Shown piece after piece: positions 8,243 through 58,200 of a DNA stretch of 64,000 nt. The first letter of the stretch is position 1, and the number at the start of each line of letters is the position of its first letter. The notes under the pieces are model-generated. The model did not search any database, was not told the DNA's origin, and saw only the letters and a list, made by a program, of their open reading frames with translations. Source of the stretch: Rhodopseudomonas faecalis (GTDB taxonomy: Bacteria; Pseudomonadota; Alphaproteobacteria; Rhizobiales; Xanthobacteraceae); assembly GCF_003217325.1 (NCBI RefSeq), contig NZ_QJTI01000016.1, positions 1-64,000 on the forward strand, read 5' to 3'. Both the position numbers and the translations under genes were made by a program.

Positions 8243-8318
8243 AGCTTTCAGGCTGGCGGAACCGCGCGGTAGCGGCTATTGGGTAGTCACACTACCCTCA
8301 ATCAGTCTGGAGATTTCG

Positions 8319-8855
8319 ATGCGCATCGACGCAGTGTCGATTGGCGTCAATCCGCCGTATGACGTCAATGTGATCATTGAAGTTCCCGTCGGTGGCGAGC
8401 CAATCAAGTACGAGATGGACAAGGCCGCGGGAACGCTGGTGGTCGATCGGTTCCTGTATACCTCGATGCATTATCCGGGGAATTACGGCTTCATCCCGCA
8501 CACGCTGTCCGATGACGGTGACCCGTGCGACGTGCTGGTCGCCAACACCCGCGCCATCGTCCCCGGCGCCGTGATGAGCGTGCGTCCGGTCGGTGTGCTG
8601 TATATGAGCGACGAAGCGGGCCACGACGAAAAGATCCTCGCGGTGCCGTCATCGCAATTGACGCGGCGTTATGACCGGATTCGGACCTACTCCGACATGC
8701 CGGACATCACGCTCAGCCAGATCCAGCACTTCTTCGAGCACTACAAGGACCTCGAACCCGGCAAGTGGGTCAAGGTGCTGCGCTGGGGCGGCGCCGATGA
8801 AGCGCACAAGCTGATCCTGGAAGGGATCGAGCGCGCCAACGCCGCCAAGAAATAA
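8319..8855 (+). CDS. ppa: Inorganic pyrophosphatase, family I
   Basis: Hydrolyses pyrophosphate in the cytoplasm and so pulls biosynthetic reactions forward. The 178-residue protein carries the family I signature with metal-binding aspartates ([10 protein letters not shown]66, D68, D71), and K30 and Y52 near the active site. The ATG at 8319 is preceded by a good GGAGA. The length matches bacterial hexameric enzymes. Confidence 0.96.
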
Positions 8856-8887
8856 GGCATCTGGAGACAAGCCGCTAGGAGACAGCG

Positions 8888-10369
8888 ATGCGACGATTGC
8901 TACGGATCCTCCGCAACATCGTCGTATCACTGCTCCTCGGCATCACTGTTCTGGCGGGCGTGCTCGCCTACAACACGCTGAGCCACGGCTCGCGGCAATT
9001 GCAGGTGGCACCATTGCCGCCGCAGCCGATCGACCAGGCTGGCGCCGCGCAGCGGCTGGCCGAGGCGATCCGCTTCAAAACCATCTCGAATTTCCTCAAT
9101 CCCGATCAGGCCGCCGAGCCGCTCAAGGCGCTGCACGCCCATCTTGCCGCGAGCTTTCCGGCGTTTCATGCCGCCTCAAGCCGCGAGATCGTCGGCCAAT
9201 ACAGCCTGCTATACGCTTGGCAGGGCAGCGATCCGGCCGCCAAGCCGATCGCGCTGCTAGCGCATCAGGACGTGGTGCCGATCGCGCCAAAGACCGAGGC
9301 CGATTGGAGCCACCCGCCCTTCGACGGCGTGATCGCCGACGGTTTTGTGTGGGGCCGCGGCTCCTGGGACGACAAGGGCAATCTGTACGCAATCATGGAA
9401 GCCGCCGAGGCGCTCGCCAAAGCGGGCTTTCGCCCCAAGCGCACGATCTATTTCGCGTTCGGCCATGACGAGGAAGTGTCGGGGCTGCGCGGCGCCAAGG
9501 CGATCGTCGAGCTGCTGGCGAGCCGCGGCGTCAAACTGGAGTTCGTGCTCGACGAGGGGCTGCTGATCACCGACGGCATCATGACAGGGCTGTCGCAGCC
9601 GGCGGCGCTGATCGGCGTCGCGGAAAAAGGCTATGCGACGTTGATGCTGACCGCACGCGCCACGCCCGGCCATTCGGCGATGCCGCCGCGCGAGACCGCG
9701 ATCGGCATGCTGGCAGCGGCATTGACCCATCTGGAGGACAACCGGCTGCCGATGCAATTGCGCGGCACCGCCGCAGAAATGTTCGCGACGCTGGCGCCGG
9801 AGATGAGTCTTCCCAACCGCGTGGTGCTGTCCAATCTGTGGCTGTTCAAGCCGCTGCTGATGCGCGAACTCGCCAAAAGCGCGGCAATCGAGGCCAATCT
9901 GCGCACCACCACGGCGCTGACCGTGTTCAACGCCGGCGAGAAAGACAATGTGCTGCCGGGGATCGCCGAAGCTGCGGTGAATTTCCGGCTGCTGCCCGGC
10001 GACACCATCAGCAGCGTCACCGACCATGTCCGCACCACCATCGGCAACGACAAGATCGCGGTCAGCGGCTTTCCGGGCAATTTCGATCCGCCGCCGGTGT
10101 CAGCCACCGACAGCGCGGCGTTCAAGGCGCTGAACCGCACCATCCGCGAAGTGTTTCCCGATGTGGTGGTAGCGCCGGGGTTGATGGTCGCCGCCACCGA
10201 CTCGCGGCATTTTTCCGCGATCGCCGACAGCGTGTTCCGGTTCTCACCAGTGCGCGCCACCGGCGAGGACCTGAAACGTTTTCACGGCACCAATGAGCGG
10301 CTCAGCATCACCAACTACGCCGACATGATCCGCTTCTATCAGCGGCTGCTGCAGACGACGGCGGGTTGA
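8888..10369 (+). CDS. Membrane-anchored M20-family metallopeptidase
   Basis: Di-zinc amidohydrolase/carboxypeptidase of family M20, 493 residues, closest in layout to PM20D1-like proteins. Residues 10-30 form an N-terminal membrane anchor or uncleaved signal. Metal and catalytic residues are in HQD (H126, D128), DDKGN (D161/D162) and GHDEEVSG (E195/E196), with a C-terminal HGTNE ligand. The catalytic domain should face the periplasm. It begins 32 bp after ppa, so the two may be co-transcribed. Substrate unknown. Confidence 0.82.
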   Translation: MRRLLRILRNIVVSLLLGITVLAGVLAYNTLSHGSRQLQVAPLPPQPIDQAGAAQRLAEAIRFKTISNFLNPDQAAEPLKALHAHLAASFPAFHAASSREIVGQYSLLYAWQGSDPAAKPIALLAHQDVVPIAPKTEADWSHPPFDGVIADGFVWGRGSWDDKGNLYAIMEAAEALAKAGFRPKRTIYFAFGHDEEVSGLRGAKAIVELLASRGVKLEFVLDEGLLITDGIMTGLSQPAALIGVAEKGYATLMLTARATPGHSAMPPRETAIGMLAAALTHLEDNRLPMQLRGTAAEMFATLAPEMSLPNRVVLSNLWLFKPLLMRELAKSAAIEANLRTTTALTVFNAGEKDNVLPGIAEAAVNFRLLPGDTISSVTDHVRTTIGNDKIAVSGFPGNFDPPPVSATDSAAFKALNRTIREVFPDVVVAPGLMVAATDSRHFSAIADSVFRFSPVRATGEDLKRFHGTNERLSITNYADMIRFYQRLLQTTAG

Positions 10370-41030: not shown

Positions 41031-42104
41031 TTATTTGGCGGCGATGGCTGCGGTGGCGGCCGGCCGATCGACCAAAAGATGGGTCGCCATCGCGCCGATC
41101 CACATCGCCAGCAGCGCCACCCAGGCGGTGACCGCAAAGATCGCGCCGCCGGTGACGCCAGCGCCGACCGCGCAGCCGCCGGCCAGCATACCGCCAAACC
41201 CCATCAGGATCGCGCCGATCGCGTAGCGCGTCATGCTCGGACCATCGTGAAAGCCCTGCAGCTTCCAATCCCGGCCGGCCAGCGACGCCAGCAGCGCACC
41301 GGCAAACACCCCCGGCACCATGCCGGTATCGAAACCGAGCGGCAGCGACGGCGAGTTGATCAGCCCCATCAGCGTATCGGCCGACGGCCCGATGAAGCTG
41401 ACGCTCTTGATGGTCACCGGGGTAAAGGCCTGCTGCGCCAACAGGTAGGTGATCAGCCAGCCGCTGGCGACCGCGAGCCCAACGCCAATCGCATAGATCC
41501 CGGTGCGCAGGCTGACGCTGGCGCGATAGGCCAGCCACAGCCCTACGACCAGCAACGCGGCGCCGAGCAGCGTGCCGAACAGCGCGCCGGCATGGATCAG
41601 CGACAACAGGTTGCGCGCGGCGCCGCCCGGCACCGTCCAGAGATTGAACAATTGCTCGCGCACCGGCGATAGCAGGCCGCGCAGCGAGGCCTGCGCGACG
41701 ATGGTCAGGATCAGCCCGGTGATCAGCGCGCGCAGATTGCCGGTCGCCGACAGCACCAAGAGCCGGCTGGCGCAGCCGCGCGCCAGGATCATGCCGCAGC
41801 CGAACATCAACCCGCCGATGATCGCCCCGGACAGGCTGCCGCGTGCCGCGAGCTGGCGCGCCTCGCTGACATCGAGCACGCCGGCGAGGATCGCGCCCTG
41901 AGTGGCGATCACCGCGGCGGAAAAGGTCAGCAGCCAGATCGCCAGCTTGTTGCCGAACCGGCCTTCGGCAAATTCGATGGTGGCCGAGCGCAGGCAGAAC
42001 GTGCTGCGCTGGGCGCAGGCCCCGAAGATCACGCCGATCAGCACGCCGCCGGCGGTCAGCAGCATGTCTTCGTCGAATCGGGCAGAGAGGGCATCCAAGT
42101 TCAC
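41031..42104 (-). CDS. YeeE/YedE-family sulfur-compound transporter
   Basis: A 357-residue polytopic membrane protein of the YeeE/YedE (DUF395) family, whose characterised members take up thiosulfate through membrane-embedded cysteines. Conserved cysteine motifs: GACAQRSTFC (C30, C37), GCGMILARGCASR (C103, C111) and LAGGCAVGAG near residue 315. GTG start at 42102-42104 with GGGGAG upstream. It is last in the leftward soxYZBCD arm, so thiosulfate import is the likely role. A second paralogue is at 50356. Confidence 0.82.
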   Translation of the reverse strand: MNLDALSARFDEDMLLTAGGVLIGVIFGACAQRSTFCLRSATIEFAEGRFGNKLAIWLLTFSAAVIATQGAILAGVLDVSEARQLAARGSLSGAIIGGLMFGCGMILARGCASRLLVLSATGNLRALITGLILTIVAQASLRGLLSPVREQLFNLWTVPGGAARNLLSLIHAGALFGTLLGAALLVVGLWLAYRASVSLRTGIYAIGVGLAVASGWLITYLLAQQAFTPVTIKSVSFIGPSADTLMGLINSPSLPLGFDTGMVPGVFAGALLASLAGRDWKLQGFHDGPSMTRYAIGAILMGFGGMLAGGCAVGAGVTGGAIFAVTAWVALLAMWIGAMATHLLVDRPAATAAIAAK

Positions 42105-42221: not shown

Positions 42222-42917
42222 CTAATCGACCGCCGGGCCGTTCTTGCCTTCCGGCGTGACGTCCACCGAGATCGCCCGGCCGATCACCTTGGGCTCGTCG
42301 CGGCAATTACTCATGCAGGGCGACTTGTTCCAAAAGTGCTTTTCGGTGGTGTCGCGGTCGTCCTCATAGAAGCCGGCGGCATTGGGCATTTTGATCTTGG
42401 CCAGCGTGTTCTTGTTCAGCTCGAAATTCTCGTCCTTGATGACGTCGTTCATGCTGAGAATATAGGCCGCGACCGCATAGATCTCATCGTCGGTCAGCGA
42501 GCGGGCATTGCCATAGGGCATCGCGCGCTTGATGTAGTCGAACAGCGTGGTGGCATCGGACCAATAGGAACCGACGGTCTTGTCGGGCCGGTCGGCCTTC
42601 AGACTACCAAGACCGCCGGCCAGCACCGGATAACGCCCGACGCCTTCGCCGAACTCGCCGTGGCAAGTCGAGCAGCGCTCCTGAAAGATCGCATCGCCCA
42701 GTTTCGGCGTGCCCTTGCCGTCCGGCAGCCCGGCGCCGTCGGGACGCACGTCGGTGTCCCACGCCTTGATCTCTTCCGGCAGTGCCACCCGGCCAAGACC
42801 GAGCTTGGCGCCCGGCTTGATCGCCAGCTGCTGCTGCGCGACCGCGACCGAGGTGAGCAGGCTGAGTGCGGCCAGCGACGCCGTCAGCGCACGCAGCGCA
42901 CTAGCTGATCTCGACAT
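42222..42917 (-). CDS. soxD: SoxD, c-type cytochrome subunit of sulfane dehydrogenase
   Basis: A 231-residue exported cytochrome with a signal peptide ending near residue 27 (VAVAQQ) and one heme site C82-S-T-C85-H86. SoxD partners SoxC to oxidise the sulfane sulfur on SoxY. Paracoccus SoxD is a larger diheme protein; only one CXXCH is visible here, plus a C-terminal CMSNC. The ATG at 42915-42917 lies 17 bp inside the end of soxC, so the genes overlap and are probably translationally coupled. Confidence 0.88.
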   Translation of the reverse strand: MSRSASALRALTASLAALSLLTSVAVAQQQLAIKPGAKLGLGRVALPEEIKAWDTDVRPDGAGLPDGKGTPKLGDAIFQERCSTCHGEFGEGVGRYPVLAGGLGSLKADRPDKTVGSYWSDATTLFDYIKRAMPYGNARSLTDDEIYAVAAYILSMNDVIKDENFELNKNTLAKIKMPNAAGFYEDDRDTTEKHFWNKSPCMSNCRDEPKVIGRAISVDVTPEGKNGPAVD

Positions 42918-44181
42918 TTTCCGTTTCCCCGTTGGCGCGGACGAGCCAGGTCTGGATGCCGTTGTTGTGGTAGATCGAGTTGACGCCGCGGATCTTGCGC
43001 AGCTCCGGCTTGCTCGGCTGCACATAGCCGGTGTCGTCGATGGCGCGCGACTGGATCATCATCTCCTGACCGTTCCAGTCGAAATCGACATAGAACCGCG
43101 TCAGCGACTTATCGAGGATCGGGCCATCGAGCCGCGCCGTGCCCCAGTTGCGGCCGCCATCGATCGAGACGTCGACGCGCTTGATGGTGCCGCGTCCGGA
43201 CCAGGCAAAGCCGCTCAGTACGTTGCGGCCCTTGTGCTTGAGCGGCGCCTGCGGCGATGGATTGGTGACCACCGACTTGGCATCCATGACGAAGGTGTGC
43301 TTACGCGCCCGGCCATCCGGCATCAGGTCGGTGTATTTCGAGGTTTCCTCGCGGGTCTGCCACGGCATGTCGCCAGCTTCGATGCGGCGCAGCCACTTGA
43401 CCCACATATTGCCCTGCCAGCCCGGGATCACCGCGCGCAGCGGATAGCCCTGCTCCGGACGCAGCGCCTCGCCATTCATGGCGAACGCGATCAGCACGTC
43501 ATTGAGCGCTTTGTCGATCGGCAGCGAACGATTGAGGCCCGCGGCGTCGGCGCCTTCCAGCATCAGCCATTTCACGTTCGGCTTCAGCCCGGCTTCGTCG
43601 AGCAGCACTTTGAGCGGCACGCCGGTGTACATGACATTGTGCACCATGCCGTGCGTGAACTGGCAGCCATTGAGCTGGGCGCCGCGCCATTCCATGCCGG
43701 AATTAGCCGCGCATTCCAGGAAATAGATGCGGTTGACGCGCGGCATGCGCTTGATGTCTTCCATGGTGAAGACCAGCGGCTTTTCCACCAGGCCATTGAT
43801 CATCAGCCGATGGTCGGCGGGATTGATCTCGGCAACGCCGCTGTGATGGCGCTCAAAGCACAGCCCGGACGGGGTGATGATGCCGTCGAGTTCGTGCAAC
43901 GGCGTAAAATTCACCGAGGATTCCGCCGAGGCGGTCAGCCAGCCGACATCGCGGCGCACGACATGCTTTTCGTATTTCGACGGCATGCCATAGGGCCGGC
44001 GATCGACGCCGTCGCCGAGCAGCTTGTTGAAGTCGTGGACTTCGGTGATCGCCGGATCGGGCTGCGCGGCGGCTTCGGCCTTGGCCTTGCCGATCGGCAG
44101 CGCGGCGCCGGCGGCCAGCAGCCCCGCTGCACCCAGGAAACCACGGCGGTTGAGGACGTCTTTGGGGGCTTGCTTGCTCAT
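42901..44181 (-). CDS. soxC: SoxC, molybdenum subunit of sulfane dehydrogenase
   Basis: A 426-residue sulfite-oxidase-family enzyme that, with SoxD, removes six electrons from SoxY-bound sulfane sulfur. Tat signal with RRGFLGAAG (residues 12-20). The Mo-coordinating cysteine is C157 in FLECAANSG. Its presence predicts oxidation of thiosulfate all the way to sulfate rather than sulfur-globule storage. ATG at 44179-44181. Confidence 0.94.
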   Translation of the reverse strand: MSKQAPKDVLNRRGFLGAAGLLAAGAALPIGKAKAEAAAQPDPAITEVHDFNKLLGDGVDRRPYGMPSKYEKHVVRRDVGWLTASAESSVNFTPLHELDGIITPSGLCFERHHSGVAEINPADHRLMINGLVEKPLVFTMEDIKRMPRVNRIYFLECAANSGMEWRGAQLNGCQFTHGMVHNVMYTGVPLKVLLDEAGLKPNVKWLMLEGADAAGLNRSLPIDKALNDVLIAFAMNGEALRPEQGYPLRAVIPGWQGNMWVKWLRRIEAGDMPWQTREETSKYTDLMPDGRARKHTFVMDAKSVVTNPSPQAPLKHKGRNVLSGFAWSGRGTIKRVDVSIDGGRNWGTARLDGPILDKSLTRFYVDFDWNGQEMMIQSRAIDDTGYVQPSKPELRKIRGVNSIYHNNGIQTWLVRANGETENVEIS

Positions 44182-44229
44182 CGCAATCGCTCGTGCTCCG
44201 GCGTTCGAACTATCCAGCTTCGATCGGTT

Positions 44230-45927
44230 TCAGCTTCCCAAAACCTTCACGGCGTTGTTGGGCGTCACCGACACCACCTTGTGGCGCTCGACATGGGCCG
44301 CCAGCACATCCCAGATCGGCGGGCCCTGCGTGCCTTCATTGACGCTGGCCCAGCCGGCGACGCTGTAGCGCTTCGACGCTTCGATCGGCTTGCCGCTCTT
44401 GAGATGGGTGAGATCGGAAATGCGCGCGCCAGCCGGCTTGGCAATGTCGATCGCGTAGCCCATGCCGCCGACCCGCACCATGTCGCCGCCGCCCTGGAAA
44501 TACGGATCGGGATGGAAGATGTTGTCGGCGATATCTTCCAGCACCTCTTTGAGCTGCTGGCCGGTCATCTCGATCCGGTAGCAATTCGGATAAGTGATCG
44601 CGGTGGCGTTGGTAACGTGTTCCCAGGTGATCTCGTCATTGGGTAGCAGCGAGCCGCCCCAGCGGAAGCCGGGCGACAGCGCGATCTCGACGTCACGCTG
44701 CTCCAGCATGGCGTTACAGATCAGATCGTCGAAAGTGCCGTTGAAATTGCCACGCCGGTACAGCAGCGAGTCGGTGCGGCCGATGGTGCGTTGCAGATCC
44801 TTGGCATAGGGCGCGCGCACTTGCTCGATCAGCTTGGCCATCGCCAGATCGGGCGCGATCGCGTCGGCGAACACCGGCATCAGCTTGAAGCGCAGCCCGC
44901 CGACCTTGCCATTCGCCACATCGATATCGAGCCTTGATACGAATTTGCCGTGCGAGCCCGACGCCACCAGCACGGTGTCGCCGACCCGGACCAAGCCCGG
45001 CATGGCATCATGGGTGTGGCCGGTGAGAATGACGTCGATGCCTTTGACGCGGCTGGCGAGCTTGCGATCGACGTCAAAGCCATTATGCGACAGCAGCACC
45101 ACCACGGCGGCGCCTTCGGCGCGCGCGGCATCGACCTGCTTCTGGATATCTTCCTCGCGAATGCCAAATTCCCAGCGCGGAAACATCCAGCGCGGATTGG
45201 CAACCGCGGTTCGCGGCAACGCCTGACCGATCACCGCAACCTTGACGCCGCCGCGCTCAAACGTCTTGCGCGCCTCGAACACCGGCTCCTGCCATTCGTT
45301 GTCGCGCACGTTCTGCGCCAGGAACGCGAAGGGCGCAGCATCGACGATCGCCTTGACGCGATCGGCGCCGAGCGTGAATTCCCAATGCGCGGTCATGGCG
45401 TCGAGCTTGAGCGCCGACATGACATCGACCATGTCCTGGCCGTCGGTCTTGAGCGCGGTCCAACTGCCCTGCCAGGTGTCACCGCCGTCGAGCAGCAGCA
45501 CATTGTCGGCGCCGCGCTCGGCGCGCACTGCGGCGACCAGCGTCGCGATGCGGTCGAGCCCGCCCATGCGGCCGTAATTGCGCGCCAGAGAGATGAAATC
45601 ATCAGAGGTCAGCGCGAACGCATCGGCCGATCCGGTGGCGATTTTGAAATAGGCGCGAAACTCGGCGTCGGTGAGATGCGGCGGCTGTCCCTTGACCTCG
45701 CCGACCCCGAGATTGATCGACGGCTCCCGGAAATGCAGCGGCATCAGCTGCGCGTGGATGTCGGTGACGTGCAGGATGGTGAGGCGACCAAGCGCATCGA
45801 ACTTCGTGATGTCGGCCTGCGTCAGGCGCTGCTGCGCCGCGACCTGGCCGAGCGGCCCGAGCCCGGAGCCGAGCACCAGCGTCGAGGCAGCCGCCGTCGC
45901 TTGCAGGAATTCCCGCCTTGAAATCAT
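44230..45927 (-). CDS. soxB: SoxB, thiosulfohydrolase
   Basis: A 565-residue di-manganese hydrolase that releases sulfate from SoxY-bound intermediates. Tat signal MISRREFLQA at the N-terminus. Metallophosphatase motifs DIHAQL (about residues 56-61), DGGDTWQGS, LLSHNGFDVD and GHTHDAMP, then a C-terminal 5'-nucleotidase-like domain. Exported to the periplasm with the other Sox proteins. ATG at 45925-45927. Confidence 0.95.
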   Translation of the reverse strand: MISRREFLQATAAASTLVLGSGLGPLGQVAAQQRLTQADITKFDALGRLTILHVTDIHAQLMPLHFREPSINLGVGEVKGQPPHLTDAEFRAYFKIATGSADAFALTSDDFISLARNYGRMGGLDRIATLVAAVRAERGADNVLLLDGGDTWQGSWTALKTDGQDMVDVMSALKLDAMTAHWEFTLGADRVKAIVDAAPFAFLAQNVRDNEWQEPVFEARKTFERGGVKVAVIGQALPRTAVANPRWMFPRWEFGIREEDIQKQVDAARAEGAAVVVLLSHNGFDVDRKLASRVKGIDVILTGHTHDAMPGLVRVGDTVLVASGSHGKFVSRLDIDVANGKVGGLRFKLMPVFADAIAPDLAMAKLIEQVRAPYAKDLQRTIGRTDSLLYRRGNFNGTFDDLICNAMLEQRDVEIALSPGFRWGGSLLPNDEITWEHVTNATAITYPNCYRIEMTGQQLKEVLEDIADNIFHPDPYFQGGGDMVRVGGMGYAIDIAKPAGARISDLTHLKSGKPIEASKRYSVAGWASVNEGTQGPPIWDVLAAHVERHKVVSVTPNNAVKVLGS

Positions 45928-46016
45928 CGTTCCACCCTTGGCCGTCTAATCGCCGCCAATTCGGCGGTCATTATCGTTGCGTGCGCGGCCGCGGCGTGAG
46001 CCGGGCCGCTTGCGAA

Positions 46017-46346
46017 CTAACCGACGGTTATTTTGTTTTTGGAGACGTAGTTCGAGCCGTCATCATCCTTCCAGGTGAAGGTGAATTCGCCGCTCTCGGC
46101 GGCCTTGTAGAAGAACGACTGGAACGGATTCGACGAGATCGCCGGATTCCACTCGGCTTCAAAGAACGGCTTGCCGTTAAACTCGGCCACGAATTTGTTG
46201 ATGATCTTGCGCGGCACGATCTTGCCGGAGGCGTCCTTGCGCTGACCGGACTCCATTTCGTGGGAGATCAGCGTCTTGATTTCGATCAGTTCGCCCGGCT
46301 TGGCCTGGGCGGGAACACGGACGCGGGGGGTGGGTGCGCTCGACAT
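46017..46346 (-). CDS. soxZ: SoxZ, sulfur-carrier partner
   Basis: A 109-residue immunoglobulin-fold protein that forms the SoxYZ carrier. Conserved blocks MESGQRKDASGKIVPRKI and FTWKDDDGS. No signal peptide of its own; it is presumably exported with Tat-exported SoxY. GAGGAAA precedes the ATG at 46344-46346. Confidence 0.95.
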   Translation of the reverse strand: MSSAPTPRVRVPAQAKPGELIEIKTLISHEMESGQRKDASGKIVPRKIINKFVAEFNGKPFFEAEWNPAISSNPFQSFFYKAAESGEFTFTWKDDDGSNYVSKNKITVG

Positions 46347-46382
46347 GATGTATTTCCTCGCCTTGTTTCGTTGAACGGGCCG

Positions 46383-46847
46383 TTAGCCGCCGCAGCCGCC
46401 GATCGTCACTTTGACGTTGGCTTTGGCCGTGTAGAGGCTGCCGTTCGACATTTCGGCAACGCAGATGATGTTCTGGGTCTGCGCGAGCCGCATCCGTGTC
46501 GATGCCGCCGCCTTGCCGCAGGCCGGCGAGAATTTGTAGCTGACGATGCCGGGCAGCGGATTGCCATCGGCAAAGACGTGGACCGCCTTGACGTAGTCGG
46601 CCTCGGTCATCGGGCTATCAACTTCGACCGAGATCGGCACCACCAGGCCGTTTTCGGCGATTTCCGGCACGTCGAGCTTGATCTTGCCGGCCTCGAACTT
46701 CTTGTCGCCGTATAGTTTCTTCAGTTCGGCATCGACCATTTGCTGGTCAGCGAATGACAGCCGCGGCGCCAGCAGCGCGGCGAACCCCGCGATGGCTGCC
46801 AGCCCCAGAGCTTCACGACGAGACGGTTTGCCCGCATTCCAACCCAT
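46383..46847 (-). CDS. soxY: SoxY, covalent sulfur carrier
   Basis: A 154-residue protein with a Tat signal (PSRREALGLAAIAG) and the diagnostic C-terminal swinging arm GGCGG, whose cysteine carries the thiosulfate-derived sulfur. The strong GGAGGA before the ATG at 46845-46847 excludes the longer frame. First gene of the leftward soxYZBCD arm. Confidence 0.95.
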   Translation of the reverse strand: MGWNAGKPSRREALGLAAIAGFAALLAPRLSFADQQMVDAELKKLYGDKKFEAGKIKLDVPEIAENGLVVPISVEVDSPMTEADYVKAVHVFADGNPLPGIVSYKFSPACGKAAASTRMRLAQTQNIICVAEMSNGSLYTAKANVKVTIGGCGG

Positions 46848-47018
46848 GGTGACGTCCTCCAACGGGAGTCTGCGCTCCCTGGCGATAGTTTCGCTTGACG
46901 ATATCAAGCCGCCGCTATCAAGATACAAATATCATTATATCGATTTTCTTGAATGTAAAGATACCCGACAGAAGTCGATTGATGGAGCCGCTCCAAGACG
47001 GCCAACAGGGAGGAGTTG
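46848..47018. promoter_or_regulatory. Divergent soxY/soxA promoter region
   Basis: 171 bp between divergent sox arms. The AT-rich patch 46915-46965 contains the inverted repeat TCAAGA (46918-46923) ... TCTTGA (46947-46952) around ATATCATTATATCG, a likely regulator or polymerase site. TGAATGTA occurs at its right edge and again upstream of the flavocytochrome genes. Confidence 0.5.
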
Positions 47019-47864
47019 ATGAGAGCAGCGGCGATCGCGGCTGGCGCACTGATGCTGCTTTGCAGCATGGGCGTCATGGCTCACGCTCAGAACAATAAGG
47101 ACGCTCAGGACAATAAGGACAATGGCGAGAAGGAGATCGAGCGCTACCGCGCGATGATCTCCGATCCGATGTCCAATCCCGGTTACCTCGCGGTCGATCG
47201 CGGCGAAGCGCTGTGGAAGCAGCCGCGCGGCGCCAACAATGTCTCGCTGGAACAATGCGATCTCGGGCTCGGCGCCGGCAAGCTGGAAGGCGCCTATGCC
47301 AAGCTGCCGCGCTACTTCGCCGACGCCGACCGGGTGATGGATCTCGAGCAGCGGCTGTTGTGGTGCATGGACAAGCTGCAGGCGCTGGATACCAAGGATG
47401 TGATCGCGCGGCGCTTCTCGGCGCCGGGACGCGCCTCCGACATGCAGGATCTGGTGGCGTTCATCGCCAACAAATCGAGCGGCATGAAGATCGAGCCGCA
47501 GCTCAGTCACCCCAAGGAAAAGGAGATGGCGGCGGTCGGCGAGGAAATGTTCTATCGCCGCGGCGGCGTGATGGATTTTGCCTGCGCTACCTGTCACGGC
47601 GAAGAGGGCAAGCGCATCCGCCTGCAGCAATTGCCGAACTTCTCCAAGCCCAGCCCGCAGGCCCAGGAAGCGATGGGCTCCTGGCCGACCTATCGGGTGT
47701 CGCAAGGCGCGCTGCGTACCATGCAGCACCGCTTGTGGGACTGCTACCGGCAACAGCGCTGGCCCGTGCCTGAATATGGCTCGGACGGCATCACCGCGCT
47801 CACGCTGTTTCTCAATAAGCAGGCGGCGGGCGGCGACATCAACGTTCCTTCCATCAAGCGCTGA
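47019..47864 (+). CDS. soxA: SoxA, c-type cytochrome of SoxAX
   Basis: A 281-residue exported cytochrome that couples thiosulfate to SoxY. Signal peptide (residues 1-23, cleavage near AHAQ). One CXXCH heme site (C189-A-T-C192-H193). The second-heme position of diheme SoxA is replaced by C80 and C116, which probably form a disulfide, so this is a monoheme SoxA. The active-site cysteine ligand is C242 in [12 protein letters not shown] at 47019, with GGGAGGAG upstream. First gene of the rightward arm. Confidence 0.93.
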
Positions 47865-47876
47865 GGGCCGGCTGCC

Positions 47877-48620
47877 ATGACCAGGATGACCTTCGCCAAG
47901 ATGAACTATGTCAAAACCTTCGCCGTGATTGCCGTGGCCGTGGCCGTCGCCGGTGCGGTGGCCGGCCACGCCGCCGATCTGCCGCTGCCGGTGGCCAAGC
48001 CCGCTATCAGCCAGGACGTGGTCAGCCAAACCGTGGTCAGCCAAACCGTGGTCAGCCAAACCGTGGTCAGCCAAGCCGTGGTCAGCCAAGCCGTGGTCGA
48101 CAATTATCTGCAGGCGACCTTTGGCAAGGCGCCGCCGGAATGGCAGGCCAAGATCGTACCGGATGAGGCGATGAAACTATGCAGCAGCTATCGCAACGAG
48201 CCGCCGCCGGCGCTGGCTGAAAAGCTGATCGCCGAGGAGAGCCAACGGGTGGTGCTGCCGGCCGACGGCCAGTTCCTCGGCGATTGGAAGTCCGGCGCCA
48301 AGATCGCCAATAACGGCCGCGGCGGCCAGTTTTCCGACGACGCCAACACCGTGAATGGCGGCAATTGCTACGCCTGCCATCAGATGGAGCAATCGGAAGT
48401 GTCGTTCGGCACGCTCGGGCCGAGCCTGACCCACTACGGCAAGGACCGCCACTACGACGCGGCCGAAATCAAGCGCGCTTATATCAAGATCTACAATTCG
48501 CAGGCCGTGGTGGCGTGCTCCAACATGCCGCGCTTTGGCGCCAACAAATTCCTGACCGAGCAGCAGATCAAGGACGTGATGGCGTTCCTGTTCGATCCGC
48601 AATCGCCCGTGAACAAATAG
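47877..48620 (+). CDS. soxX: SoxX, c-type cytochrome with a VVSQ repeat insert
   Basis: A 247-residue exported cytochrome, the electron-accepting subunit of SoxAX. N-terminal hydrophobic signal (about residues 14-31). Heme site C164-Y-A-C167-H168 and a likely axial Met in SNMPRFG. Residues 48-72 are five near-identical VVSQ(T/A) repeats encoded by a 15-bp minisatellite, which inserts a flexible linker between the signal and the SoxX core. It starts 12 bp after soxA. Confidence 0.9.
   Translation: MTRMTFAKMNYVKTFAVIAVAVAVAGAVAGHAADLPLPVAKPAISQDVVSQTVVSQTVVSQTVVSQAVVSQAVVDNYLQATFGKAPPEWQAKIVPDEAMKLCSSYRNEPPPALAEKLIAEESQRVVLPADGQFLGDWKSGAKIANNGRGGQFSDDANTVNGGNCYACHQMEQSEVSFGTLGPSLTHYGKDRHYDAAEIKRAYIKIYNSQAVVACSNMPRFGANKFLTEQQIKDVMAFLFDPQSPVNK
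48018..48092 (+). repeat. 15-bp coding minisatellite in soxX
   Basis: Five tandem units of GTGGTCAGCCAAACC (last two with GCC), 48018-48092, in frame. Units 1-3 are identical. Copy number could vary between strains without breaking the frame. Confidence 0.9.
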
Positions 48621-50355: not shown

Positions 50356-51441
50356 GTGCAGAGTTGGTCCGCCTGGATCATCGCGTTTGCCGGCTTCGCG
50401 ATCGGGCTGATCGCCGGATTTGCCGTGCGACAAGCCAAGCTGTGCTCATTCGGCGCGATCGAAGATCTGCTGATCGGCGGTGACAGCCGGCGTATGCGGG
50501 TGTTCGCGCTCGCGCTCGGCATTGCGCTGCTTGGTACGCAAGCGCTGATCGCATTCGGCGTGCTGGCGCCGGATCAAACCTCCTACACGCCAAGCGCGCT
50601 GCCGCTGCTTTCGACCGTGACCGGCAGCATCCTGTTCGGCATTGGCATGGCGCTGGTCGGCACCTGCGGCTTTGGCTCGCTGGTGCGGCTTGGCACCGGC
50701 GATCTGCGCAGCCTGGTGGTGGTGCTGGTGCTGGGCGCGCTGGCCTACGCCACGCTGCGCGGCATTTTCGCAGCGCCACGGATCACGGTGCTGGAGGCGG
50801 TCGCCGTTCCGATGCCTGATGGCCTGCGCTCCGACCTGCCATCGCTGATCAAATATCTGATCGGCTCGGAATGGCGCGGCGCGCTGGCGCTGACCCTCGG
50901 CGCGGCGCTGTGTTTCAGCGCGCTCGGCAGCAGCCGGATGTGGCGGACGCCGCGATTGCTGACGGCTGGCGCCGTGCTCGGCGTGATGGTGACGCTGGGC
51001 TGGCTGGCGACCACGCTGTTGCATGATGACTTCGCCGGGCCGGCGCGGCCGCAAAGCCTGACCTTCGTTTCGACGGTCGGCAAGGCATTGTTTGCCAGCC
51101 TGATCAGCACCGCCAATCTCGCCGATTTCGGCGTCGGCTCGGTGTTCGGCGTGATCGCGGGCGCGTTCTTGTCGGCCTGGTGGTCCGATGATCTGCGCTG
51201 GGAAGCGTTCGATGATGATCGCGAGATGCGCCGTCATCTCACCGGCGCGGCGCTGATGGGCGTTGGCGGCATTCTCGCCGGCGGCTGCACCATCGGCCAG
51301 GGACTAACCGCCGGATCGCTGCTATCGTTGTCCTGGCCGTTTGCCGTCGGCGGCATGATCCTGGGCGCCCGGATCGGCATCGCGTTTCTGATGGGTGACA
51401 TCCCCTTGCGGGCCCGGCGCGGCAAGCAGCGGCTGACTTAG
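50356..51441 (+). CDS. soxT: SoxT-like YeeE/YedE transporter
   Basis: A 361-residue polytopic protein, paralogous to the transporter at 41031. Cysteine motifs RQAKLCSFG (C30), LVGTCGFGSLVR (C104) and LAGGCTIGQG near residue 323. SoxT proteins are linked to thiosulfate uptake or to sulfur signalling with the neighbouring SoxR. GTG start at 50356 with GGGAGG upstream. Confidence 0.82.
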   Translation: MQSWSAWIIAFAGFAIGLIAGFAVRQAKLCSFGAIEDLLIGGDSRRMRVFALALGIALLGTQALIAFGVLAPDQTSYTPSALPLLSTVTGSILFGIGMALVGTCGFGSLVRLGTGDLRSLVVVLVLGALAYATLRGIFAAPRITVLEAVAVPMPDGLRSDLPSLIKYLIGSEWRGALALTLGAALCFSALGSSRMWRTPRLLTAGAVLGVMVTLGWLATTLLHDDFAGPARPQSLTFVSTVGKALFASLISTANLADFGVGSVFGVIAGAFLSAWWSDDLRWEAFDDDREMRRHLTGAALMGVGGILAGGCTIGQGLTAGSLLSLSWPFAVGGMILGARIGIAFLMGDIPLRARRGKQRLT

Positions 51442-51444
51442 CCA

Positions 51445-51459
51445 CCCGCTCGCAGCGGG
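51445..51459 (+). terminator. Short hairpin after soxT
   Basis: CCCGCT (51445-51450) and AGCGGG (51454-51459) form a small hairpin three bases after the soxT stop; no T-run. Weak candidate. Confidence 0.3.
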
Positions 51460-51566
51460 CAAATAACAATCACCGCTGTCACTTGCGGCAGTGCAGCACG
51501 GATAATTGCCGCGCGCATCAGCAAGACCACGCACTAACACTTGCCCAAACGCATCTTCGTATTATT

Positions 51567-51588
51567 ATGTTCAAAAAGCTGAATGTAT
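51567..51588. promoter_or_regulatory. Candidate operator upstream of the flavocytochrome genes
   Basis: AT-rich patch with ATGTTCA...TGAATGTAT, an imperfect inverted repeat. TGAATGTA also occurs in the soxY/soxA region, so a common regulator (SoxR) is possible. Low confidence. Confidence 0.3.
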
Positions 51589-51681
51589 CTCTGCAGAGAG
51601 CGGCGGCCACGCTGCTACTGACAAGAGAACGAAGTCGCGCAACGGCCACTACCACAGGCCGCCGACGAAAGGGGCAAGGAA

Positions 51682-52197
51682 ATGCCGGGCAGCCGCCGCA
51701 AGGCGATACTGCTTTGCGGAGCATGGGCAGCACAACCGCAACTCGCCTCCCATGATTCGCAGCGCGCACCAACGCCGGCCGAGGCCGCACGGCGAGCCGA
51801 CCGCGTTGGCCGAGGCCGTCGCAGCGATGTTGTCGTCAGCCTCCAGATCACCAAGGTCGCCGCGCTCGTCATCGGCGCGGTGCTGATGACCACCGCCACG
51901 GCGAAAGCCGGCGGCGATCGCGAGCTTGGCGAATATCTCTCCACCGAATGCGTCACCTGTCATCAGCTCAGCGGCCGCAACGACGGCATTCCTTCGATCG
52001 TCGGCTGGCCGGAATCGAGCCTCGTGCAAGCGCTGAGCGATTTTCGCGAGCACCGCCGCGACAATGCGGTGATGCGCTCGATCGCCATCAAATTCACCGA
52101 TGACGAATTGGCGGCGCTGGCTGCCTATTTCGGCAGTCTGGCACCGGATCATGAAACACAGTCGGTCGCCGCCAGCGACGGGGCCACAACCAAATAA
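51682..52197 (+). CDS. Monoheme c-type cytochrome of the sulfide dehydrogenase
   Basis: A 171-residue class I cytochrome c with heme site C90-V-T-C93-H94 and the ITKVAALVIGAVLMTTATAKA export segment at about residues 56-76. An unusual ~50-residue Arg-rich N-terminal extension precedes it. The ATG at 51682 has GGGG 7 bases upstream, and no better start is available downstream, so the extension may be real. It sits directly before two FccB-like flavoproteins and likely passes their electrons on (SoxE/FccA role). Confidence 0.8.
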   Translation: MPGSRRKAILLCGAWAAQPQLASHDSQRAPTPAEAARRADRVGRGRRSDVVVSLQITKVAALVIGAVLMTTATAKAGGDRELGEYLSTECVTCHQLSGRNDGIPSIVGWPESSLVQALSDFREHRRDNAVMRSIAIKFTDDELAALAAYFGSLAPDHETQSVAASDGATTK

Positions 52198-52213
52198 GCA
52201 GGGAGGAATAAGC

Positions 52214-53482
52214 ATGTCCACGATCACCCGACGCCGGTTTTCGGCATCCGTTCTGGCCGCCGCCGGCGTCCTGGCTGCCCCGGGCGTGCTGCGCGCCCAA
52301 GGCAAACCCAAGCTGGTGGTGATCGGCGGCGGGCCAGGCGGCGCCACGGTCGCGAAATATGTCGCGCGCGATTCGCAAGGCGCGATCGATGTCACCATGG
52401 TCGAGCCGCTCGACGCTTTCATCACCTGCTTCCATTCCAATCTGGTGCTCGGCGGCCTGCGCAGCTACGACTCGATCATCCACCCCTACAAGCTGTCGAA
52501 TTACGGCGTGAAGCACGTCCGGCAGATGGCGGCCGCGATCGATCGTGACAAGAAGCAGGTCCGGCTCGCCGATGGCAGCACGCTGCCCTACGATCGCCTG
52601 GTGGTCGCGCCCGGCATTGATATCAAGTTCGATTCCGTGCCCGGCTACTCCGAAGAGGCCGCCGCGATCATGCCCCATGCCTGGAAGCCGGGCGCGCAGA
52701 CCTTGCTGCTGAAGAAACAGCTCGACGCGCTCAGTGACGGCGCGACCATCGTGATGCTGGCGCCGCCCAATCCCTATCGCTGCCCGCCGGGGCCCTATGA
52801 GCGCGTGTCGTGTATGGCCGCCGTGCTGAAGGCCAAGGGCCACACCAAGTCGCGCATTGTGGTGATCGACCCCAAGGAAAAATTCTCCAAGATGGCGCTG
52901 TTCCAGGAAGGCTGGCAGAAGCACTATCCGGGCATGGTCGAGTGGATGGACCCGAAGATGCACGGCGGCGTCAAGGCGGTCGATCCCAAGGCGATGACCG
53001 TGACCACCGACCTCGAAACCATCAAGGCCGACCTTGTCAACGTGATCCCGGCGCAGATGGCAGGCAAGATTGCGCGCGACGCCCAACTGACTAATCAGAT
53101 CGGCTATTGTCCGATCGATCCGAACAATATGAAGTCGGCGGTCGATCCGAACATCTATGTGCTCGGCGACGCCGCGATCGCCGGCACCATGCCGAAATCG
53201 GCTTTCTCCGCCAACAGCCATGCCAAGGTGGTGGCGATGGCGGTGCGCGGCGAACTCGCCGGCAGCCGCACCTTCCCGGCGCGCTATGCCAACACCTGCT
53301 GGTCGGTGATCGCCAAGGACGACACCGTGAAAATCGGCGGCCGCTATGAAGCCAAGGACGGCGCGATCGCCGAAGTCGAAGGCTTCGTCTCCAAGACCAA
53401 CGAAAATCCGGAAGTGCGGCTGCAGACCAGCGAAGAAAACATGGGCTGGTACTCCGGCATCACCGCAGACATCTTCACATGA
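52214..53482 (+). CDS. soxF: FccB/SoxF flavoprotein 1 of flavocytochrome c sulfide dehydrogenase
   Basis: A 422-residue periplasmic flavoprotein. Tat signal TRRRFSAS at the start; FAD motif VIGGGPGGATVAKY (about residues 36-49). C72 in FITCFHSN corresponds to the cysteine that binds FAD covalently in Allochromatium FccB. The redox disulfide is C190 (PYRCPPGPYER) with C362 (NTCWS). Oxidises sulfide or related sulfur to sulfane sulfur. GGGAGG before the ATG at 52214, 16 bp after the cytochrome gene. Confidence 0.88.
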   Translation: MSTITRRRFSASVLAAAGVLAAPGVLRAQGKPKLVVIGGGPGGATVAKYVARDSQGAIDVTMVEPLDAFITCFHSNLVLGGLRSYDSIIHPYKLSNYGVKHVRQMAAAIDRDKKQVRLADGSTLPYDRLVVAPGIDIKFDSVPGYSEEAAAIMPHAWKPGAQTLLLKKQLDALSDGATIVMLAPPNPYRCPPGPYERVSCMAAVLKAKGHTKSRIVVIDPKEKFSKMALFQEGWQKHYPGMVEWMDPKMHGGVKAVDPKAMTVTTDLETIKADLVNVIPAQMAGKIARDAQLTNQIGYCPIDPNNMKSAVDPNIYVLGDAAIAGTMPKSAFSANSHAKVVAMAVRGELAGSRTFPARYANTCWSVIAKDDTVKIGGRYEAKDGAIAEVEGFVSKTNENPEVRLQTSEENMGWYSGITADIFT

Positions 53483-53528
53483 CAGCTCGCCGCGCTTCGC
53501 CCGGCGGAGCGCGGCAAGGAGACCGGCT

Positions 53529-54797
53529 GTGACGACCTCTCCCCTCCTGACCCGACGCAGCATGATCGGCGCCCTGGCCGCGACGGCTGCGTTCGGCTGT
53601 CCCGCGATCGCCAAAGCCAAGCCACGGATCGTGGTGGTGGGTGGTGGCCCTGGCGGCGCCACCGCGGCCCGCTATCTGTGTCACGGCTCGGACGCGCTCG
53701 ACGTGACGCTGGTGGAGGCCAACCGCAACTACGTCACGCCGTTCACCTCCAATCTCTATCTCGGCGGCCTCAAGAATTTTGAGGCGCTGAACTTTGGCTA
53801 TTACGGCGTGGCCGCTTCCGGCGCCAAACTGGTGTTCGACCGCGTCACCGCGATCGAGCGCGACGCCAAACAGGTGCGGCTCGCGGGCGGCGGCCGGCTC
53901 GATTACGATCGGCTGATCCTGTCGCCCGGCATCGATTTTCGCTGGAACTCGGTGCCGGGCTATTCGCAGCAGGCGGCCGCGGTGATGCCGCATGGCTATC
54001 AGGGCGGCGAGCAGTTTCAGCTCGTGAAGCGTCAGCTCGATGCGCTCGGCGATGGCGGCACCATTGTCATCATCGCGCCGCCGACGCCCTATCGCTGTCC
54101 GCCGGCGCCTTATGAGCGCGCCTCGATGATGGCCAATGCGCTCAAGACGCGCGGCGTCAAGAATGTCCGGATCGTGATCCTGGACTACAAGGATCACTTT
54201 GCGATGCAGCCCTTGTTCACCGATGGCTGGGAGCGCCACTATCCCGGCATGGTGGAGTGGCAGGACCCGACCATTCACGGCGGCATCAAGGAAGTCGATC
54301 CGCGCACCATGACCGTGGTCACTGACCTCGAACAGATCAAGGCAGCCATGGTCAATGTGATCCCGGCGCAGACCGCGGGCCAGCTCGGCCGCGACGCTGG
54401 CTTAGTCGATGAAAGCGGTTTTTGCCCGGTCAATGCCGACACCATGACCTCGCTGATCGATCCGGCGATCCACGTTATCGGCGACTCGGCGATCGGCGGC
54501 GATTTCCCGAAATCGGGTTTTGCCGCCAACAATGAGGGCAAGCTGACCGCGATGATCATCCGCGCTGAACTGGCCGGTGGTCGGCGGCTGCCGTTCCGCT
54601 TCACCAATCATTGCTGGAGCACGCTGGCGCCGAACGACGCCGTCAAGAACGGCGCGCGCTACGAGCCGCGCGACGGCCGGATCGTGATGATCGAGCCCTA
54701 TACCTCACAGCTCGACGAAAGCGCCGAGCTGCGCGCCAAGCAGGCGCGCGAAGCCACCGGCTGGTATGCCGGCATGACCACCGACATTTTTGGGTAA
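53529..54797 (+). CDS. FccB/SoxF flavoprotein 2, lacking the FAD-linking cysteine
   Basis: A 422-residue paralogue of the preceding protein with the same layout: Tat-like TRRSMIG signal, FAD motif VVGGGPGGATAARY, redox pair C190 (PYRCPPAPYER) and C362 (NHCWS). The position that would carry the covalent FAD cysteine is P71 (VTPFTSN). GTG start at 53529 preceded by AAGGAGA. It may use non-covalent FAD, a different substrate, or a different cytochrome partner; only one cytochrome gene is present. Confidence 0.85.
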   Translation: MTTSPLLTRRSMIGALAATAAFGCPAIAKAKPRIVVVGGGPGGATAARYLCHGSDALDVTLVEANRNYVTPFTSNLYLGGLKNFEALNFGYYGVAASGAKLVFDRVTAIERDAKQVRLAGGGRLDYDRLILSPGIDFRWNSVPGYSQQAAAVMPHGYQGGEQFQLVKRQLDALGDGGTIVIIAPPTPYRCPPAPYERASMMANALKTRGVKNVRIVILDYKDHFAMQPLFTDGWERHYPGMVEWQDPTIHGGIKEVDPRTMTVVTDLEQIKAAMVNVIPAQTAGQLGRDAGLVDESGFCPVNADTMTSLIDPAIHVIGDSAIGGDFPKSGFAANNEGKLTAMIIRAELAGGRRLPFRFTNHCWSTLAPNDAVKNGARYEPRDGRIVMIEPYTSQLDESAELRAKQAREATGWYAGMTTDIFG

Positions 54798-54858
54798 GGT
54801 TGAGTTAGTTCGGATCAAACAGAACTAACTCCAGCGACAATTGAATCCACTACGCCGC

Positions 54859-54980
54859 GCGTCATGGCCGGCCGCGTCTTGGACAATCGCGTCTTGGCCA
54901 TCCACGTCTTGGCCATCCACGTCTTGGCACCTGCACCGCTGCGAAGACGTCGATCCCCGCGACAAGCGCGGGGATGACGT
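54859..54980. repeat. Degenerate family A element with reiterated core
   Basis: The GTCTTGGCCATCCAC core is repeated three times between the two outer arms, as if by slippage; the right arm CCCCGCGACAAGCGCGGGG is intact. Lies in the 461-bp gap between the sox locus and the RND operon. Confidence 0.7.
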
Positions 54981-55010
54981 GAAGCAGTGAGGAGAAACGC
55001 GCTCACCATC

Positions 55011-55209
55011 CCTCCCCCCGCGTAGCGGTGGGGAGGGTCGGCGCGTAGCGCCGGGGTGGGGGGAGTTTTGCCGATCACACGGATCGACGCTTCATTTCGA
55101 TAGTCGGGCAGTAAACGGTAGGCAGAACGAAACTGCGCGCCTCCTCGTCCCCCCACCCGTCCGGCCCGATCAGCATCGGGCCGGCCACCCTCCCCGCAAG
55201 GAGGAGGGA
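55011..55209. repeat. Family B palindromic intergenic element, paired copies
   Basis: Copies at 55011-55064 and 55149-55209, in opposite orientation; the second has GGCCCGATCAGCATCGGGCC. Confidence 0.75.
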
Positions 55210-55258
55210 CAGAGAAGGCGTTGCACCGTCTTGCCGCAACACAAGCGTATTGCGCCCG

Positions 55259-58200
55259 CTACTGCTTGGCCTTGCCCGCGAACCGCTCGCGCAGGCCCTT
55301 GATCGACGGCAGCCAGCGCAGCTCGCCGCTGTTTTCGCGCATCCGTTGGAACACGACGTACAGCATCGGGATGAAGATGATGCCGATCAGGCTGGCCGCC
55401 AGCATGCCGGAGAACACCGGCGTGCTGAGATTGCGCCGTGCCAGCATCGCCGCGCCGTGCGCCCACACCAGCGGCACCAGGCCGAGGATAAAGGCGATCG
55501 AGGTCATCATCACCGCGCGGAACCGCAGCTTCGCGCCCTGCTCGGCGGCTTCCTTGATCGAGCGCCCCGCCTCGCGTTGCTCCTTGGCGAACTCCACGAT
55601 CAGAATGCCGTTCTTGGCAGCCAGCGCGATCAGCACCACGAGGCCAATCTGGGCATAGAGATCGAGCGTGACGCCGGCAATCAGCACGCCGACAAACGCA
55701 CCGAACACCGCGATCGACACCGACAGCAGCACCGGGATCGGGATGATCCAGCTTTCATAGAGCGCCACCAGGAACAGGTAGGCGAAGATCACCGCCAGCG
55801 CGATGATGTAACCGGTTTTGCCGACTGCCTGATGCTCCTGATAGGCCGTGCCGGTCCATTCAAAGGCATAGCCGGGCGGCAGCGTTTTTTGCGACACCTC
55901 GGCCATCGTCGCCATCGCGGTGCCGGACGACACGCCGGGCGCCGGCGAGCCGTTGATCGAAACGGCACGATAATTGTTGTAGCGGGTGATCACCGCGGGC
56001 CCCGTGACGGTGCGCACCGAGGCGATCGATTGCAGCGGCACCATCTCGCCCTTGGCACTGCGCACATAGATGTCCCACAGCGCCGGCAGATCGCGGCGGC
56101 CGCTGGCATCGCCTTGCAGATTGACCTGCCAGGTGCGCCCAAACATGTTGAAGTTGTTGATGTAGAACCCGCCGAGCGAGATCTGCAACGCCGAGAACAC
56201 GTCATTGATGGTGACGCCGAGCGACTGCGCCTTCTCGCGGTCGATGTCGAGGAACACCGACGGCGCGCTGGCGCGATAGGTGCTGAACACCCGCGTCAGT
56301 CTCGGGTCCTGGTTCGCCGCCGCGAGCAGGCCGTTGGTAACCGCGCCCATCGCCGCCGGTTCGGCGCCTTCGATCGATTCCAGCTGATACTCAAAGCCAC
56401 CCGCTGTGGACAGGCCGACCACCGGCGGCACGTTGAACGCCAGCACCATCGCCGAATTGACCTGCTGCACCGCGCCGAACGTTTTCGCGATCAGCACCTG
56501 CGCCGATTGGCTCGCGGCCTTGCGGTCCGCGAACGGTTTGAGCTGCACGATGATGAAGGCGTTGTTGGACGCCGAGTAATTGTCGAGCAGCGACAGCCCG
56601 ACGATCGACACCACGTCGCGCACTTCCGGCATCTTGCGGATGATGTTCTCGACCTCGATCACGGTCTTTTCGGTGCGCGCCACCGAAGCGCCGTCCGGCA
56701 ATTGCACGTTGACGAAGAACGCGCCCTGATCTTCTTCCGGCAAGAAGCCAGTCGGCGTCTTCCACGACAGCCCGAGCACGCCGATGCCGCACACCACCAC
56801 GGCCAGCAGCGAAAGCGCCGGTCGGCGCAGCGCGATCCGCACCACGCCGATATAGCCGTCGCGGGCGCCATCGATGCGGCGGCCGAACCATTGCATGATG
56901 CCGCGCCGCGGCCCGCTGTGGCGCAGGAACAGCGCGCACAGTGCCGGCGACAGCGTCAGCGCGTTGATCGCCGAGATCAGCATCGCGGCGCTGATGGTCA
57001 CCGCGAACTGCCGGAACAGCTCGCCCATGATGCCGGGCAGGAAGCCGATCGGCACAAACACCGACAGCAGCACCAGCGTGATCGCGATGATCGGCGCGGT
57101 GACCTGCGCCATTGCTTTCTTGGTGGCCTCAGCCGGCGTCAGCTCCGGCTCCTCCTCCATCACCCGCTCGACGTTTTCGACCACCACGATCGCGTCATCG
57201 ACCACGATGCCGATCGCCAGCACCAAGGCCAGCAACGACACGGTGTTGACGGAGGCGCCGAGGGCCACCAGCACCGCAAAGGTGCCGATCAGACTGACCG
57301 GAACGGCGATGGTCGGAATCAGCGTGGCGCGCAGGCTGCCCAGAAACACGAACACCACCGCGGTCACCAGCACGAACGCTTCCAGCAGCGTCGAGATCAC
57401 CGCATTGACGGTGTCGTTAACGAACACGGTAGAATCATAGGCGATCCGCGCCACCACCGATTCCGGGAAGCGCGGCCGCAGCTGATCGAGCTTGGCCTTG
57501 ACCGCTGACGCCGTGTTCAGGGCGTTGGCGCCCGGCGCCAGAAACACGCCGATGCCGATGGTCGGATTGCCGTTGAAGCGCGCGTAAGTATCGGCATTCT
57601 GCGGCCCGAGCTCGACGCGCGCGACGTCGCCAACCCGCAGCACCGAACCATCCGGATTGGCGCGCAGCACGATCGCGGCGAATTCCTCCGGCTTGGTCAG
57701 CCGGCCCTGGGTTTGCAGATTGAGCTGAAACTGCTGATCCTTCGGCACCGGGCGCGCGCCGATGCGGCCGACCGGGGCCTGCACGTTCTGGGCGCCGATC
57801 GCGGCGGCGATATCGGATGGCACGAGGCCCAGACTCGAAATCTTCTCGATGTCAAACCAGACCCGCATCGAATAATTGTTGCGGCCGAACAGCATCGCTT
57901 CGCCGACGCCGGGCACGCGCGACAGCTCGTCCAGAACGTTGATCAGTCCGTAATTGGTCAGGAACAGCTGGTCGTATTTCTCGCCCTCGCTGAACATGTT
58001 GATGACCTGCAGCATCGACGACGACCGTTTCTGGACGTTGACGCCTTGCAGGCGGACTTCGGGCGGCAGCTGCGACAGCGCGTTCTGCACCCGGTTATTG
58101 ACGTTCACCGTGTTGATGTCGGGATTGGTGCCGAGCGCGAACGAGACGTCGAGCGTGTAGGAGCCGTCATTGCCGCTCGAACTCTTCATGTAGAGCATCT

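Follow-up and report, generated by a model that had tools for sequence, protein, structure and literature searches.

The Sox locus of Rhodopseudomonas faecalis carries two adjacent flavoprotein genes of the FccB/SoxF type, and in the second of them the FAD-linking cysteine of the family is replaced by proline. This raises the question of whether the two copies do different work, as the first-pass annotation had proposed from the missing cysteine. In what follows, the window is the whole stretch of 64,000 nucleotides that was analysed; the ordinary, cysteine-bearing form is called C-type, and the second copy with its orthologs forms the P-type class. The features concerned, in window coordinates, are the following.

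42222 to 48620, both strands: Sox cluster, with SoxD-, SoxC- and SoxB-like proteins, SoxZ and SoxY on the minus strand, and SoxA and SoxX on the plus strand (the SoxB, SoxC and SoxD names are assigned from fold family and position).
51682 to 52197, plus strand: monohaem c-type cytochrome, SoxE/FccA-like (Pfam Cytochrom_C, 23.6 bits; motif CVTCH).
52214 to 53482, plus strand: C-type FccB/SoxF partner copy (P0002), 422 residues (Pfam, PDB alignments).
52427 to 52429, plus strand: codon of C72, the FAD-linking cysteine of the first copy (PDB alignments, translation).
53516 to 53521, plus strand: ribosome-binding site AAGGAG, 7 nt ahead of the GTG start (sequence).
53529 to 54797, plus strand: P-type FccB/SoxF-like flavoprotein (P0001), 422 residues by translation, with the N-terminal twin-arginine motif TRRSMIG.
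53739 to 53741, plus strand: codon of P71, at the site of the FAD-linking Cys42 of 1FCD (PDB and family alignments).
54096 to 54098, plus strand: codon of C190, the redox cysteine equivalent to Cys161 of 1FCD (alignment).
54609 to 54614, plus strand: codons of H361 and C362 (Thr336 and Cys337 of 1FCD), a class-specific His and the second redox cysteine.

The coordinates, reading frames and lengths of the tandem pair, as well as C190 and C362 in each protein, were confirmed. The start of the second gene, a GTG at 53529, is well supported and lies 46 nt past the stop of the first, and its product harbours cysteines at positions 24, 51, 190, 299 and 362. By domains, sequence and predicted fold, this protein is a member of the FCSD family (FccB/SoxF). 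It scores 137.5 bits with FCSD_central (PF21706; cut-off 27) and 67.5 bits with FCSD-flav_bind (PF09242; cut-off 26), and aligns over its whole length with the FccB structures 1FCD, 3VRD and 5N1T in HMMER searches, with E-values from 1.9e-95 (5N1T) to 3.4e-88. Its AlphaFold model (pLDDT 92.3) has the FccB fold and superimposes on 5N1T, 3VRD and 1FCD with Z scores of 57.7, 57.6 and 55.9, respectively, and an rmsd of 1.5 to 1.7 over 390 to 391 residues. SQR shares the superfamily fold, but its best Z score is 38.6 compared with 57.7 for FccB, and the only SQR model listed (NF049943, a type III selenoprotein subtype) gives 74.7 bits, below its cut-off of 525. The redox pair C190 and C362 and the active-site E196 (Cys161, Cys337 and Glu167 of 1FCD) are kept in this protein and in all 22 P-type sequences, and an RR motif can be read at the N-terminus of 21 of them.

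With regard to electron acceptors, the pair is accompanied by a single cytochrome gene, as the first-pass annotation had stated. Its start codon is uncertain, and the conserved core amounts to about 80 residues around CVTCH. Comparison of 20 P-type loci (five genomes occur twice among them) shows it at the same place ahead of the pair in 18; the sequence of the other two, L065 and L067, starts some 200 bases ahead of the first flavoprotein match. In 11 of the 13 named loci (all but L065 and L067), the DNA beyond the second flavoprotein, about 8 kb in ten loci and 2.2 kb in L064, yielded no CxxCH-bearing ORF of 70 to 449 codons, counted from one stop to the next. In all 22 P-type loci, the second copy is preceded on its own strand by a C-type copy whose stop falls 218 to 436 nt before the TPFTSN codons. 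A promoter and terminator scan of 51400 to 55260 returned one promoter-like and two terminator-like matches, not above shuffled sequences, and is mute on co-transcription.

The position of the cytochrome–flavoprotein–flavoprotein module relative to the Sox genes varies. In the window and in a near twin (L022/L057), it is part of the soxAX arm; in the remaining P-type loci that have both arms (L023–L027, L058–L064, L066, L068 and L069), it follows soxYZB on the opposite arm. This placement looks as if the module or the Sox arms had been swapped. In addition, two membrane proteins of the Sulf_transp (YeeE-like) type are encoded next to or inside the Sox cluster of the window (41031 to 42104, minus strand; 50356 to 51441, plus strand). 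Another contig of the same genome carries a third FccB paralogue (G000:C6:145194-146468, L036), which is 40% identical to the P-type protein and has kept the cysteine.

The P-type class was found in 22 of 391 genomes drawn from the host's family, namely that of the window and 21 others at 70% to 98% identity, the next best match in these genomes being at 57%. Thirteen of the 22 carriers have names in the GTDB-220 collection and belong to Rhodopseudomonas, Rhodoplanes, Blastochloris sulfoviridis and 'Rhodovulum sp. PH10'. A scan of that collection gave 78 loci among the best 80 of 480 relatives, of which the 65 beyond the 13 P-type ones are at most 53% identical. In 385 genomes sampled class-wide, matches beyond the window's own genome reach 56% at best. 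The paralogue pair that the first-pass annotation had suggested looking for in Rhodopseudomonas is indeed there: 12 of the 16 genomes sampled from the genus have it, as do relatives. The other four of the 16 have neither a P-type nor a close C-type copy, so that the pair is present or absent together in this genus. None of the 22 P-type genomes comes from genus g49, possibly Bradyrhizobium.

Carriers of the class are, with one exception, phototrophs by gene content: reaction-centre genes (PF00124) occur in 21 of the 22, versus 28 of the 369 other genomes of the family. Among genomes with a SoxF-group copy, defined by a best E-value better than about 3e-126 (a threshold chosen by hand from the match list), the figures are 21 of 22 P-type carriers versus 3 of 68 with the C-type only. 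As the C-type copies of the carriers form one clade, the Fisher values for these contrasts are inflated, and the link to phototrophy amounts almost to one evolutionary event. The exception, G174 (L041), is a single-contig genome that carries the pair and has no PF00124 match; horizontal gain of the pair or loss of photosynthesis is possible there. A sox operon is reported for B. sulfoviridis and B. tepida, and its absence for B. viridis, in the available part of one source (PMC7193936). In the open-access literature, as far as its accessible parts extend, we found no description of this paralogue pair, of its missing cysteine or of the biochemistry of the P-type class.

In FccB of A. vinosum, Cys42 is the site of covalent FAD attachment and Cys161 and Cys337 form the disulfide, according to the accessible section of PMC3504083, and a thioether FAD link together with redox cysteines is likewise described for FCC enzymes in the portion available of PMC12010331. 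The HMMER alignments place P71 opposite the Cys of YYTCYLSN (1FCD), YYTCYMSN (3VRD) and YTTCPFSN (5N1T), and a 167-row family alignment matches P71 with Cys42, C190 with Cys161 and C362 with Cys337 of 1FCD. C72 of the partner copy, which otherwise has cysteines 190, 200, 299 and 362, aligns with the FAD-linking Cys of the structures. The first-pass reading of a cysteine in the first copy and a proline in the second thus holds at the FAD-linking site. A misalignment of P71 was considered and is ruled out by the three PDB alignments, the family alignment and the common TPFTSN motif. The proline is kept, always as TPFTSN and beyond chance, in all 22 P-type orthologs, as is the motif TNHCWS, so none of the 22 has the cysteine for thioether-bound FAD that a strict definition of SoxF/FccB demands. 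The only invariant cysteines of the class are C190, C299 and C362; with no replacement among them, a relocated cysteinyl FAD link is unlikely. The simplest reading of these alignments is that the P-type protein in all likelihood holds FAD non-covalently. Flavin that lacks the 8-alpha thioether should be dissociable, and its potential is probably lower.

Such a loss has occurred elsewhere in the family. In a phylum-wide sample, PF09242 matched in 95 of 398 genomes; the listed matches comprise 100 besides three from the window's own genome, of which 99 were readable and 97 cover the position (Chlorobi fall outside the sample). At the position of Cys42, these 97 FccB proteins have 81 Cys, 14 Gly, one Leu and one Asn, i.e., 16 are Cys-less, but since all 14 Gly proteins (YYSGPLSN) come from two families, f213 and f218 (for instance L174, L165 and L183), these are not 16 independent cases. 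Another survey, skewed to relatives of the query, started from 211 ORFs; removal of exact duplicates and of matches below 250 bits left 165, plus two PDB rows. Its 167 rows have 140 Cys, 23 Pro and four Ser, the prolines being those of the 22 P-type proteins and of one independent case, L120. In a 215-row tree, built with the link region removed by a quick search under a simple model, parsimony counts at least ten changes between Cys and non-Cys, returns included. L199, a Gly-type FccB, groups with Cys-bearing rows on this tree.

Ten of 12 genomes carrying a Cys-less protein have one FccB match at an E-value of 1e-40 or better (G917 has two and G1034 three), several of the 12 being incomplete or of unknown completeness. 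The Gly-type protein is the sole FccB in four of five genomes checked, and all seven loci examined have an ORF with the motif CGKCH or CSKCH immediately before it. From these comparisons, the covalent flavin bond of FccB is an evolvable trait whose cysteine has been lost repeatedly, and loss of the cysteine, as judged from the sampled sequences, is by itself neither distinctive nor rare in the family. Because a Cys-less FccB can be the sole copy behind a cytochrome gene, cysteine loss alone does not imply a new substrate or acceptor. On its own, the missing cysteine lends the proposed split of function less weight than was first assumed.

These same observations favour plain redundancy, in which both copies would share substrate and cytochrome, the dispensable cysteine would have drifted away and the second copy would serve dosage; the repeated changes, the Cys-less proteins encoded as single copies with an upstream cytochrome gene, and the one cytochrome gene serving the pair all fit it. 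A drifting copy, however, is hard to reconcile with an identical TPFTSN in all 22 proteins, with 14 class-specific positions besides P71, with the constant company of both copies in the 22 loci, or with a long stem followed by strong conservation. We regard redundancy as an unlikely account, albeit one of some substance.

The history of the class bears on this point. P-type proteins form a single clade with support of 100/100, on a stem of 0.62 changes per site; with 12 representatives taken per clade, the stem of the partner clade measures 0.12. The tree places them inside an alphaproteobacterial group of copies that includes Paracoccus. A tree joining the P-type and partner clades, as a local tandem duplication would give, is not the best one and is not rejected either (AU p 0.289), the tested tree being flagged for long branches that join at the P clade. 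The median pairwise dN/dS is 0.265 in the P-type class (231 pairs) and 0.19 in the partner copies (105 pairs, from the 15 of 22 loci passing a motif filter); the somewhat higher value leaves room for some relaxed constraint. None of the 22 P-type matches contains an internal stop, and in 15 P-type sequences aligned, the redox cysteines, Glu196 and the glycines of the FAD motif are invariant. Decay to a pseudogene is ruled out by the lack of stops, the kept catalytic residues and the dN/dS. The P-type copy is a retained, diverged paralogue with one origin, under purifying selection. Rapid change first and constraint afterwards is a pattern more in keeping with a new or narrowed function than with decay. 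A second copy that is constrained yet diverged is also what a split of function would lead one to expect, and this support for the proposal stands.

Better, though circumstantial, evidence for a split comes from residues peculiar to the class, next to the redox cysteine and in the C-terminal domain, which the first-pass annotation had not noticed. At fifteen positions, the P-type class has a fixed residue that is rare (at most 5%) in the 140 C-type rows. Among them are P71 and T73 in the loop of the flavin link, G323, F326 and N335 past the GD motif, and H361 immediately ahead of C362; His223 is class-specific as well and present in all 22 proteins. In a set of 266 rows (22 P-type and 244 others, a few genes, for instance those of G603 and G521, occurring in both surveys and being counted twice among the latter), Phe at the position of Met301 of 1FCD (F326) is found in 22 of 22 P-type versus 0 of 244 other rows, and His at the position of Thr336 (H361) in 22 of 22 versus one, the exception being L083, with a broken C-terminus. 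This FccB of Chenggangzhangella methanolivorans (7911 to 9059) seems to end early and to lack the second redox cysteine, possibly owing to a frameshift or a broken gene.

Seven of the 15 sites fall in residues 357 to 421, the C-terminal domain (p 0.005), and six near landmark motifs (p 0.009), both values being exploratory since the windows were chosen after seeing the sites. In FCC enzymes, the C-terminal domain binds the electron acceptor, according to the part consulted of PMC12010331. Cys-less proteins outside the P-type class have kept Thr336 in 17 of 21 cases, so H361 and its companions do not simply follow from the loss of the flavin link. Next to C362, H361 could serve in acid-base catalysis on a thiol or persulfide substrate.

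Remodelling of the C-terminal domain might also reflect a heteromer, in which both flavoproteins and the single cytochrome would make one enzyme and the P-type subunit, with little turnover of its own, would be structural or regulatory. The C-type neighbour in all 22 loci and the one cytochrome gene would suit such an assembly; the invariance of the redox cysteines, Glu196 and the FAD-motif glycines in the 15 aligned P-type proteins is unexpected for an inactive subunit, however, and SoxF is described as monomeric in the accessible part of PMC5358917. We deem a heteromer improbable.

That FAD is still covalently held through another residue, such as a histidine, is the least credible alternative: 8-alpha-histidyl flavins exist and His361 and His223 are class-specific in all 22 proteins, but His361 adjoins the redox cysteine, which from the layout of 1FCD makes a link there unlikely, the 8-methyl edge of the flavin presumably facing the Cys42 position.

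On balance, we favour a diverged SoxF/FccB paralogue that would hold FAD non-covalently and differ from its covalent partner in substrate range, redox potential or acceptor. Individual parts of this reading differ in strength. Judging from its conserved residues, the P-type protein is quite likely an active enzyme, and a changed substrate or acceptor is slightly more probable than an unchanged one. It probably does a slightly different job from that of the C-type copy. The SoxF gene would have been duplicated once, in the Rhodopseudomonas/Rhodoplanes/Blastochloris line or earlier; the second copy would then have changed fast, both around the flavin/disulfide site and in its C-terminal acceptor domain, before becoming constant. 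Tat translocation exports proteins that are already folded, and the RR motif suggests that the protein would reach the periplasm in this way with FAD bound. A reduced sulfur compound would there attack the C190–C362 disulfide, and electrons would pass from the disulfide to FAD and on to a c-type cytochrome.

A fuller version of this scheme is tentative, and we hold it doubtful as a whole. The second SoxF of Rhodopseudomonas, Rhodoplanes and Blastochloris, with dissociable FAD and a His–Cys redox centre, might act on a sulfur species other than free sulfide (e.g., persulfide or polysulfide, possibly carrier-bound) and feed the cytochrome pool of the photosynthetic reaction centre, leaving sulfide oxidation to its covalent twin.

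SoxF is a periplasmic monomer with covalent FAD and the SoxE cytochrome as redox partner, according to the section available of PMC5358917. The P-type protein shares with it the fold, the redox cysteines, the twin-arginine motif and a Sox locus beside a monohaem cytochrome; unlike SoxF, it has no FAD-linking cysteine, carries His beside the second redox cysteine and Phe at the Met301 position, and sits second in a tandem behind an ordinary copy. It matches FccB (1FCD, 3VRD and 5N1T) over its whole length, with the Z scores given above and with Cys161, Cys337 and Glu167 kept, and differs in the proline at Cys42 and in that no cytochrome gene of its own is seen. Gly-type FccB likewise lacks the linking cysteine and keeps the redox pair, but has a separate origin, is without the P-class residues at 336 and 301 and, unlike the P-type, is mostly the sole copy with its own upstream CGKCH or CSKCH ORF.

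A split of function between the two copies is plausible, as the retention of the paralogue and the remodelled flavin/disulfide site and acceptor domain suggest. An adjacent pair of the same fold, differing at the flavin-linking residue and a few active-site positions, would offer a natural test of the role of the covalent flavin bond in sulfide dehydrogenases. Given the repeated loss of the cysteine, an FccB should not be annotated automatically as a covalent flavoprotein. Such a division of labour may account for the retention of two SoxF genes in these purple non-sulfur bacteria.
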